DNA from: Geobacter sp.
GTDB taxonomy: Bacteria; Desulfobacterota; Desulfuromonadia; Geobacterales; Geobacteraceae
NCBI GenBank assembly: GCA_003574885.1
Contig: PJFC01000006.1
Span: forward strand, 124,001 to 188,000
Length of the DNA stretch: 64,000 bases
Direction: 5' to 3'
The position numbers were made by a program, and so were the translations under genes. This document shows, in pieces, positions 60,532 through 62,861 of the stretch. Under the pieces are notes generated by a model. The model saw only the letters and a list, made by a program, of their open reading frames with translations. It did no database searches and was not told the origin of the DNA. Every line of letters starts with the position of its first letter. Position 1 is the first letter of the stretch.

Positions 60532-60729
60532 GGCTTCCTCCCCTTTTTTTATGTCATTCTTTTGCTGAAGGCGCAAGAGGAATGATTCAACCTGCGGAAT
60601 TCATCAGACGGGACGACAACTGGCGGCTGTCCGGGTGAAGTGCCGGACGGGGCAACGGAGGTGCGGAATAACTTGACACAAACTCTGAACTCTGCCAGTT
60701 TTGGGAATGCCATCGGGAAAGGGGGAACT

Positions 60730-61053
60730 ATGGGAAGAGAGCTGTACGTTGGAAGTATCTCGTTCGACGCGGGAGAGGAAGACCTGAGGGTCCTGTTCAC
60801 GGTCTCCGGAACGGTCAGTTCGGTCCACCTGATAACCGATTCCCAGACGGGGAAGTTCAAAGGGTGCGCGTACGTTAAAATGTCCACTGCTGACGAGGCA
60901 AAGGATGCCATAGCAAGCCTGGATGGAGCGTTGCTCCTCGGCCGGCTCATAACCGTCTCTGAAGCCAAGCCGCAAAAACCGAAGGCGCAGACTGCCGGCG
61001 GATATCAACGAAAGCCGGGACCGGGGAAAGCCCCCGGCAAAGGAAGAAAATAA
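60730..61053 (+). CDS. RNA-recognition-motif RNA-binding protein
   Basis: 107 aa from MGRELYVGSISFDAG, with AAAGGGGG upstream. One RRM: RNP2 LYVGSI (residues 5-10), RNP1 KGCAYVKM (about 45-52), then a basic Gly/Pro/Lys tail (GPGKAPGKGRK). Such short RRM proteins occur in cyanobacteria and deltaproteobacteria, some cold-induced. Monocistronic, with a terminator directly after. Confidence 0.92.
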   Translation: MGRELYVGSISFDAGEEDLRVLFTVSGTVSSVHLITDSQTGKFKGCAYVKMSTADEAKDAIASLDGALLLGRLITVSEAKPQKPKAQTAGGYQRKPGPGKAPGKGRK

Positions 61054-61147: not shown

Positions 61148-62116
61148 CTACGGCCCCAGTAGCAGGTTCGCCGTGCCACTCGGCGGCACGGAGTTATCGG
61201 TATTGGCCTGCACAGTTATGGAGGGAGAGGAATAGACCCGGAACTTGCTCCCCGGGTTCACGACATTGATAAAGACTTTGTATGAGGCGGACGACATCAT
61301 TGACGAACCGTTCGGCGGGACGTAGGCAATGAATGGCGCCTTCCAGACGCTGGGACTGCTGAAGTTGCTGAAGACGTCCCCACTGACAATGGCCGGCGCC
61401 GCCGGATTTCGCGGCGCAATCGAGATGGTCGCGCTGGACCAAGTCGCAAAGGCCGGCGAGCGGATCAGACCCGAGATTGATCCGGTAGTGCTGTTCAGTG
61501 CCGTCGATACCTGCTGAATACGAATGCCGGTCGGCTTGAGATTGTTATTACCCGAACTCCCCGCCTTGACAATGGCTGCATCGGGATTGAATTCGAGAAG
61601 GACAGTGTTCAGCGTCCCCGCTGTCACGGTAAAGTGACCGACAATTTTTACTCCGGTCTGTTGTGCACTTGGAGTGGTTAGAGGGACCTTCGTTGTGGTG
61701 CCGGCCAGGATAAAATAGTTATTGAGGGTCGGCTGGTTGGGAGCTAGGATCAGGCGGACCTGGTTGTACGTTCCCGCCGGGATAATAGATTCCCCCAGGA
61801 GTTGTTGCAGGAAGTGGAGCTTGAGAATATCGACGTCCTGGCCTCCGCTTGCCGTGAAATCGGCGATGACCGGTAGTCCGGGATCATTGTCATTGGCATT
61901 CTCCTTACCGGCCGGCACAACAGCTACCTTGGTAACCCTGATGTGCACACTGGAAAAATCCCGGAACGCCGGACTGTCCGTAATGCCGACCTGGAGAGTG
62001 CCGGTCGTTGCCGTCCCACCTCCACCCCCACCACAACCCGGCAATTGGCTAACTGCGAAAACCGCCAGCACTACCGCACCTGCCAGACAGAATCCATTGA
62101 AATACCTGTTCGCCAT
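61148..62116 (-). CDS. DUF4382-domain lipoprotein under riboswitch control
   Basis: 322 aa from MANRYFNGF, with GGAGG upstream. Lipobox LPGC (residues 25-28) after a signal helix, then a Gly-rich linker. The DUF4382-type domain follows (TLQVGITDSPAFRDFSSVHI, VDILKLHFLQQLLGES, IIPAGTYNQVRLIL, about residues 38-205), then a Ser/Thr/Pro-rich C-terminal part. It is probably anchored at the outer membrane. The GEMM-I riboswitch at 62202-62289 and terminator at 62180-62222 lie in its leader. Confidence 0.82.
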   Translation of the reverse strand: MANRYFNGFCLAGAVVLAVFAVSQLPGCGGGGGGTATTGTLQVGITDSPAFRDFSSVHIRVTKVAVVPAGKENANDNDPGLPVIADFTASGGQDVDILKLHFLQQLLGESIIPAGTYNQVRLILAPNQPTLNNYFILAGTTTKVPLTTPSAQQTGVKIVGHFTVTAGTLNTVLLEFNPDAAIVKAGSSGNNNLKPTGIRIQQVSTALNSTTGSISGLIRSPAFATWSSATISIAPRNPAAPAIVSGDVFSNFSSPSVWKAPFIAYVPPNGSSMMSSASYKVFINVVNPGSKFRVYSSPSITVQANTDNSVPPSGTANLLLGP

Positions 62117-62179
62117 GATAAATACCTCCATAGGATAGATTGTCCCTTTCCACCCCGCTGAAACACTTGCAAAACAAAA

Positions 62180-62222
62180 CAGCCGGGGCAGAAATATGGA
62201 TGATATTTCGGCAACCCGGCTG
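62180..62222 (-). terminator. Riboswitch expression-platform terminator
   Basis: In the minus-strand RNA CAGCCGGG pairs with CCCGGCTG, extended by GAAATAT/ATATTTC, followed by TTTTGTTTTG. Its 5' arm reuses the last aptamer bases (62210-62222), so it can form only when the aptamer is not folded. Confidence 0.85.
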
Positions 62223-62289
62223 TCTCGGTGAGACCCGTAGGCTTTCCGCCCCATCCTCGCGGATGGTTGAGTATTATCGTGTTACCATC
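62202..62289 (-). promoter_or_regulatory. GEMM-I cyclic-dinucleotide riboswitch (GEMM-Ib/cGAMP type likely)
   Basis: The minus-strand RNA has the GEMM-I core: P1 GGTAAC/GTTGCC (62281-62286 with 62210-62215), a stem ACCATCC-GCGA-GGATGG with a GNRA loop, GGGGCGGAAAGCC, then TACGGGTCTC and GAGACAGCCGGGTTGCC, in the order known for c-di-GMP-I RNAs. The base aligned with Vc2 G20 reads A, the feature linked to cyclic AMP-GMP selection in Geobacter. Ligand choice is inferred from alignment by eye. Confidence 0.9.
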
Positions 62290-62312
62290 TCTGAAAGAGA
62301 CTTGTTGTACCT

Positions 62313-62341
62313 GATTAAAACAGAAAAGGCGTGATTGTCAA
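62313..62341 (-). promoter_or_regulatory. Promoter of the riboswitch-controlled lipoprotein gene
   Basis: TTGACA (62336-62341), 17-bp spacer, TTAATC (62313-62318) on the minus strand; start near 62306, 17-20 bases before the aptamer. Confidence 0.7.
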
Positions 62342-62372: not shown

Positions 62373-62753
62373 CTACTCTCCTCTGAAAAATTTCCTGATA
62401 TCCCGTCCCATCTGCCTGAACGCGTCACCTGTTTTCTTCCCCGCATCACGAAACCATTCTCCCATGGACCTTCCGGCTTTCCTTGTTTCCTCCTTGGTTT
62501 CCTTTCCCATTTCCTTGAACCCTTTGCCAACTTCCCTGCCACCTTCCTTGAAGGCGTGGCCGGTTTCCTTCCCTGCCTCCTTGAAGGCGTGACCTACCTC
62601 CTTGCCTCCTTCTTTAAAGGCATGTCCGGTCTCCTTGCCTGCCTTCTTCAAGGCCTGGCCGACCTCTTTTCCTTTTTCCTTTACCGCGTTATCTCCCCAC
62701 ACCGGTGTGACCAGGAAGAGTGCAACGACGGCACTCATCAGCATTTTACCCAT
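62373..62753 (-). CDS. Secreted protein of nine 11-residue amphipathic repeats
   Basis: 126 aa from MGKMLMSAVVALFLV, with AAGGAGG upstream. A signal peptide (1-20) and a 7-residue linker are followed by exactly nine 11-residue units from residue 28 to the C-terminus (consensus GKEVGHAFKEA; later units vary). The period of 11 and the charge pattern resemble LEA and synuclein-type helices, which coat membranes or protect under stress. Function unknown. Confidence 0.8.
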   Translation of the reverse strand: MGKMLMSAVVALFLVTPVWGDNAVKEKGKEVGQALKKAGKETGHAFKEGGKEVGHAFKEAGKETGHAFKEGGREVGKGFKEMGKETKEETRKAGRSMGEWFRDAGKKTGDAFRQMGRDIRKFFRGE

Positions 62754-62861
62754 AAAATCCTCCTTTTCACCAGAGTACGGACACTTTACCATGACAGGGC
62801 TCTGACGTCAAAAGGGAACGCGACACCGGGCACTGGCAAGCTATAGGGCCGTGCAGAAAAA

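Follow-up and report, generated by a model that had tools for sequence, protein, structure and literature searches.

A probable GEMM-Ib (3',3'-cGAMP class) riboswitch, predicted to act as an ON switch, ahead of a DUF4382 lipoprotein gene in Geobacter

Introduction

In Geobacter, riboswitches that sense 3',3'-cGAMP are reported to favour respiration of solid iron oxides and to control, among others, genes for cytochromes, pili and lipoproteins (PMC6456294). Genes behind GEMM-Ib RNAs showed decreased expression in a gacA deletion, and the pgcA switch was about 1200-fold selective for cGAMP (PMC6456294); for Gm0970 the selectivity was about 1600-fold (PMC8835794). Molecular dynamics of the crystallised cGAMP riboswitch gave contacts at G8, A9, A11, A12, A14, C15, G40, A41, A42 and C75, and the structure pairs C15 with G40 in P2, A42 with U73 in P3 and G74 with C75 in J1/3 (PMC6274999).

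Selectivity in this class is graded. A20 is described as a selectivity factor and no hard filter (PMC9262584); an A20 aptamer from Desulfobacca gained cAMP-GMP binding, with c-di-GMP binding perhaps slightly down (PMC9481103). The omcST riboswitch is reported to be dual, sensing both cyclic dinucleotides (PMC6456294).

Here we describe an RNA element on the minus strand of a 64,000-nucleotide stretch of a Geobacter sp. genome (the window). We consider it very likely that this element is a GEMM-Ib (3',3'-cGAMP class) transcriptional ON riboswitch ahead of a DUF4382 lipoprotein gene.

Results

The leader elements, all on the minus strand, lie between the DUF4382 gene and an open reading frame whose end is at 62373. 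A -35 element TTGACA (62336..62341) and a -10-like element TTTAAT (62314..62319), with a spacer of 16, were read off the sequence, as was the Shine-Dalgarno GGAGG (62125..62129), 8 nt upstream of the ATG at 62116. Downstream of the promoter lies an aptamer of the GEMM-Ib (cGAMP) type with A20, A47 and C92 (62207..62282), assigned by RF01051 and its contact residues, followed by an intrinsic terminator, ACAGCCGGG...CCCGGCTGT plus a T-rich tail (62171..62223), supported by shuffles and transcript folds. The gene (61148..62116) encodes 322 aa. A preliminary description had reported promoter, aptamer and terminator as visible and had named no strand; every part was present on the minus strand. The extent it gave was 62180-62341, and the boundary at 62180 clips the T-rich tail. 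The open reading frame upstream (62373-62792, minus strand) encodes a small protein of 11-residue repeats resembling KEGGKEVGHAF, with sub-threshold Pfam matches only.

The product of the downstream gene (62116-61148) matched DUF4382 (PF14321, E 1.8e-28, 99.9 bits, cut-off 25), in agreement with the target first proposed. A hydrophobic stretch leads to a lipobox-like LPGC and then a Gly run, and Cys31 of this site was invariant in 16/16 aligned relatives. Proline at position -2 is unusual for a lipobox. A cell-envelope location is inferred from the lipobox-like site. The protein has two Cys in all and lacks the CxxCH haem motif. A profile of 16 sequences gave no significant match to solved structures (best E 0.18), and AlphaFold2 with a three-sequence alignment gave an unusable model (mean pLDDT 40.4). 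The next predicted gene downstream, encoding an RRM protein (60640-61053), is convergent, and the DUF4382 gene is therefore probably monocistronic.

DUF4382 homologues were found in 21/38 genomes of relatives and in 37/48 genomes of the family; the two sets overlap and the window's own genome is in both. We scanned 41 DUF4382 loci, window locus included, with 25 from the 38-genome set and 16 new ones from the 48-genome set; six match rows without a locus, in G042, G043, G061 and G057, were excluded. At 30 of the 41 loci a GEMM-I aptamer lay upstream on the same strand, and at 11 none was detected even at E values up to 5. The switch-less loci comprise six distant, longer members, a clade of four (L029, L030, L047 and L071) and the isolated L035. 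Because six of the 11 are distant members, the link holds for 30/35 close family members. Geobacter sp. AOG1 (protein 87% identical) and the metagenome-assembled genome SKS4.bin43 (78%) also carry a GEMM-I aptamer upstream; these two cases probably overlap with the 41 loci and are not independent. This conservation is the strongest evidence against a chance arrangement. In the protein tree, the four-member switch-less clade is sister to a group made up of the window protein and its two closest relatives (support 0.83), and the link is therefore no simple vertical trait.

Comparison with two relatives, L027 and L031, gave different affinities for different parts of the locus. The window signal peptide was closer to L031 (20/28 identical) than to L027 (13/28), and the mature protein closer to L027 (273/295) than to L031 (171/272). 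The window aptamer was identical to those of L027 and L031 at 76/76 and 75/76 positions, respectively. Judged from these alignments, the pattern points to a recombination event close to the Gly run that follows the lipobox Cys.

A further arrangement was seen at eight loci of genus g13, where DUF4382 lies between two GEMM-I RNAs (L038, L040, L074, L076, L079, L080, L082 and L083). At the four that we read in detail, L038, L040, L074 and L076, a hemerythrin-like protein (PF01814 in L040) and, by eye, a SYLF-like protein come next. L038, L074 and L076 have a small secreted protein ahead of DUF4382 that looks, by eye, like the one encoded behind L008 in the window's own genome.

Each of the 30 DUF4382 leaders has a TTGAC hexamer that begins 50-64 nt ahead of the aptamer, and -10-like hexamers at equal spacing were present in relatives (TCTAAT in L027, TTTAAT in L028). 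The putative window promoter was absent from the output of a generic promoter scan because the scan rule requires A at -10 position 2. Likewise, a generic terminator scan did not return the window terminator because it permits loops of at most 8 bases.

Assignment of the RNA to GEMM-I, as originally proposed, was upheld by an Infernal search with Rfam models: cmscan of the 64-kb window matched 62282-62207 to RF01051 with 49.1 bits (cut-off 35, E 1.4e-6). The region 62300-62170 had a fold z of -3.69, and 0/200 shuffles were equally stable. Across the 30 DUF4382 leaders, 97.4% of 660 pair cells were standard pairs, compared with 29-50% in slid controls. Covariation support for the three-helix fold across relatives is modest: 15 of 22 aptamer pairs were invariant, only 2 changed on both sides (matched by 29/500 shuffles), and one P3 pair was broken in 13/30 leaders. 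Folded on its own to minimum energy, the aptamer contained P2 and upper P3 and lacked lower P3 and the junction pairs. In the known aptamer fold, lower P3 is held by tertiary contacts. The c-di-GMP-I riboswitches of the Vc2 type have fold and Rfam family (RF01051) in common with the window aptamer; we take them to carry G20 and a P2 base of G-C/C-G, where the window RNA has A20 and C-G/U-G.

A sequence pattern for the crystallised G. sulfurreducens RNA searched poorly (exact in 0/48 genomes; 5/141 at up to two mismatches), and the ligand comparison was therefore based on published residue numbers (PMC6274999). Numbered from G8, the window RNA has 10/10 of the published cGAMP-contact nucleotides at identical spacing, with C15-G40, A42-U73 and G74-C75 in register (PMC6274999). 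All ten contacts were present in 28/30 DUF4382 leaders; in L028 and L031, position 12 is C. A14 of this numbering falls at window position 62272 and is the residue equivalent to G20 in Vc2 numbering, where the first description had placed an A; the A is indeed there. Positions 20, 21, 22 and 47 were A, C, U and A in 30/30 leaders, all of which end in GCCGAA.

We also examined the genome for a potential source of the ligand. There were 18 GGDEF matches, of which 16 fit the motif pattern and represent 15 distinct genes; L066 and L067 fell outside it, and a single gene is split between L065 and L068. The substrate position was Asp in 13 genes, Thr in one (L061) and Ser in one (L060). L060 has receiver and GGDEF domains, a Hypr-type Ser and the motif GGDEY. 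Its best solved relative among the matches listed was 6d9m (E 1.3e-72), in which lysozyme is fused to a response-receiver diguanylate cyclase, presumably GacA, that likewise has Ser at this position. A cGAMP supply in this genome appears likely because L060 combines the receiver-GGDEF architecture, Hypr Ser and GGDEY motif with closest similarity to 6d9m. The structure named in PMC6456294 is 5VS9, which was not among the best 60 structure matches listed for L060. Natural Ser/Thr enzymes are described as carrying GGDE[F/Y] exclusively (PMC6456294), a rule that both L060 and L061 obey. The ten contact nucleotides, together with the Hypr-type Ser of the receiver-GGDEF protein, support the earlier proposal of 3',3'-cGAMP as the predicted ligand.

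We think it improbable that in the cell the aptamer responds to c-di-GMP, or to both cyclic dinucleotides, while the mechanism is otherwise unchanged. The fact that A20 confers a preference rather than a filter (PMC9262584, PMC9481103), the dual behavior of a native Geobacter GEMM-Ib switch, omcST (PMC6456294), and the canonical Asp in 13/15 distinct motif-fitting GGDEF genes all lean towards such a reading, and are opposed by the match of 10/10 contact nucleotides to the cGAMP riboswitch (PMC6274999) and the retention of A20 in every DUF4382 leader.

The direction of control was assessed from the terminator. Its arms occupy 62223-62215 and 62187-62179, followed by a T-rich tail to about 62171, and the tail TTTTGTTTT is interrupted by a G. 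The 5' arm (62223-62215) doubles as the 3' strand of helix P3 in the aptamer. When the 75 nt downstream were dinucleotide-shuffled, 1/2000 sequences reached the observed terminator score and 1220/2000 formed a weaker stem that still qualified. A stem of at least 7 pairs that reuses the aptamer AGCCGGG and is followed by a T-rich tail was found in 30/30 DUF4382 leaders, the tail (4 or more T among 8 bases) being imposed by the stem search itself.

With the transcript folded at increasing lengths, one C in the P3 strand paired upstream with probability 0.89 when the 3' end lay at 62187, and downstream with probability 0.94 at 62183 and 0.96-1.00 in longer transcripts. The P3 strand is thus predicted to leave the aptamer for the terminator as the 3' end passes from 62187 to 62183, and in these computed folds the terminator and helix P3 are mutually exclusive. 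Because the P3 strand moves into the terminator as the transcript grows, ligand should turn the gene ON. The original suggestion that the terminator reuses aptamer bases, with ON control predicted, is consistent with both the recurrent stem and the computed switch. In the full-leader fold the Shine-Dalgarno was mostly paired (predicted 0.11-0.40 unpaired), and translation may therefore contribute to control.

It is very unlikely, in our estimate, that the aptamer is real and the platform is mainly an OFF or translational switch, or a decayed element. The weak -10, the interrupted T tract and the mostly paired Shine-Dalgarno in the predicted full-leader fold would suit that explanation; the P3-overlapping stem with its T-rich tail in 30/30 leaders, and an aptamer identical at 76/76 positions to that of the nearest relative, argue against it. 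Least credible of all, to the point of being nearly negligible, is that the aptamer is a c-di-GMP-I-GGC variant (RF03167) whose ligand might differ: this model aligned with the window aptamer over its whole length and displaced RF01051 (49.1 bits) in a local scan with laxer filters, but its 51.2 bits are below its cut-off of 59, and its consensus has G at 20 and 47 where the window has A at both, so that the class was rejected.

The GEMM-Ib element of the window is one of many related RNAs in the genome. At least 23 GEMM-I RNAs were over the cut-off, with 150 of 250 candidates scored. Fourteen of these combine the Ib scaffold with A20; eight have G20 (by eye), and c-di-GMP-type RNAs therefore coexist with them. 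Ib RNAs precede CxxCH proteins (L015, L018/L019 and L021), a PilM-like protein (L010, by eye) and, behind two switches, a likely lipoprotein (L007/L022, by eye). These genes resemble the published cGAMP regulon of cytochromes, pilus genes and lipoproteins (PMC6456294).

Three RNAs of the genome depart from the usual combinations. By eye, L013 1501-1577 (G000:C10:348094-348170) has A20 in a c-di-GMP-type (Ia) scaffold with G21-C46 and C22-G45; it precedes a protein with six CxxCH motifs and is a candidate dual or cGAMP sensor. L014 (G000:C10:197656-197734) and L016 (G000:C1:348948-349026) have, by eye, a GEMM-Ib-like CGGAAAGC junction, yet carry G20, and are possibly c-di-GMP sensors on an Ib-like scaffold.

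Tandem aptamers were also observed. L092 (G000:C10:99900-103500) has a cGAMP-type (A20) aptamer at 2028-2103 with its own terminator, followed by a c-di-GMP-type (G20) aptamer at 2225-2314. The same A20-then-G20 order occurs in L093, L094 and L095, the gap being 109-156 nt, so that four genomes in two genera share it. After the second aptamer, a Shine-Dalgarno complement, AGTACCTC / GAGGTACT, was seen by eye in L092-L094, and a shorter one in L095. In all four loci the protein encoded after the tandem leader has repeats of the InlB type and an fn3 match below threshold. Judged by its arrangement, such a leader could be a two-signal AND gate acting on transcription plus translation. In another genome, L096 (G021:C1) has three RF03167 aptamers over the cut-off (1010-1089, 1551-1629 and 1794-1873) within less than 900 bases on one strand.

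Discussion

The predicted mechanism at the window locus is as follows. Without ligand, the terminator would be completed by capture of the P3 strand ACAGCCGGG, and transcription would halt near 62171. Binding of cGAMP would hold P3 and the junction and leave the 3' arm CCCGGCTGT unpaired, and the lipoprotein would be produced. A GacA-like protein of the Hypr GGDEF type, with its gene elsewhere in the genome, would presumably supply the cGAMP, making the lipoprotein one putative non-haem cell-envelope output of the signal. The lipoprotein may belong to an electron-transfer or surface-contact programme: several genes that follow RNAs of this kind in the genome fit one, but the lipoprotein itself lacks a CxxCH motif.

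The recurrent link between the switch and DUF4382 (30/41 loci) nominates a little-studied, non-haem envelope protein for the cGAMP response. A bolder proposal, which we put forward tentatively and consider rather unlikely as a whole, is that cGAMP uses the DUF4382 lipoprotein as a dedicated non-haem output for contact with surfaces or attachment to minerals, with the switch kept in at least two families of the order, and also that promoter, riboswitch and signal peptide form a recombining cassette. If this were true, the cassette could be joined by recombination to different mature DUF4382 proteins, as in the window, L027 and L031.

A full-text literature search for DUF4382 listed a paper on archaeal glycoproteins. 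The search found no published link between DUF4382 and cGAMP; the tables of the founding papers (Kellenberger 2015, Nelson 2015) may contain one, and the gene lists of Ren 2015 and Keller 2018, beyond what the search covered, could likewise already contain it.

The tandem A20 and G20 leader is more unusual than the window switch. No such pair appears among the natural tandem riboswitch gates tabulated in the accessible part of PMC9481103.

Compared with the Geobacter GEMM-Ib switches already described (Gs1761/pgcA, Gm0970 and pilM), the window RNA has contact residues, junction spacing and A20 in common. In the pgcA and pilM switches a terminator competes with the aptamer, as in the window. 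ON logic was shown by reporter for pgcA and is predicted likewise here. The difference lies in the target, which in the window is a DUF4382 lipoprotein rather than a cytochrome or pilus gene. The window RNA itself is one more conserved, ordinary member of the described GEMM-Ib class.
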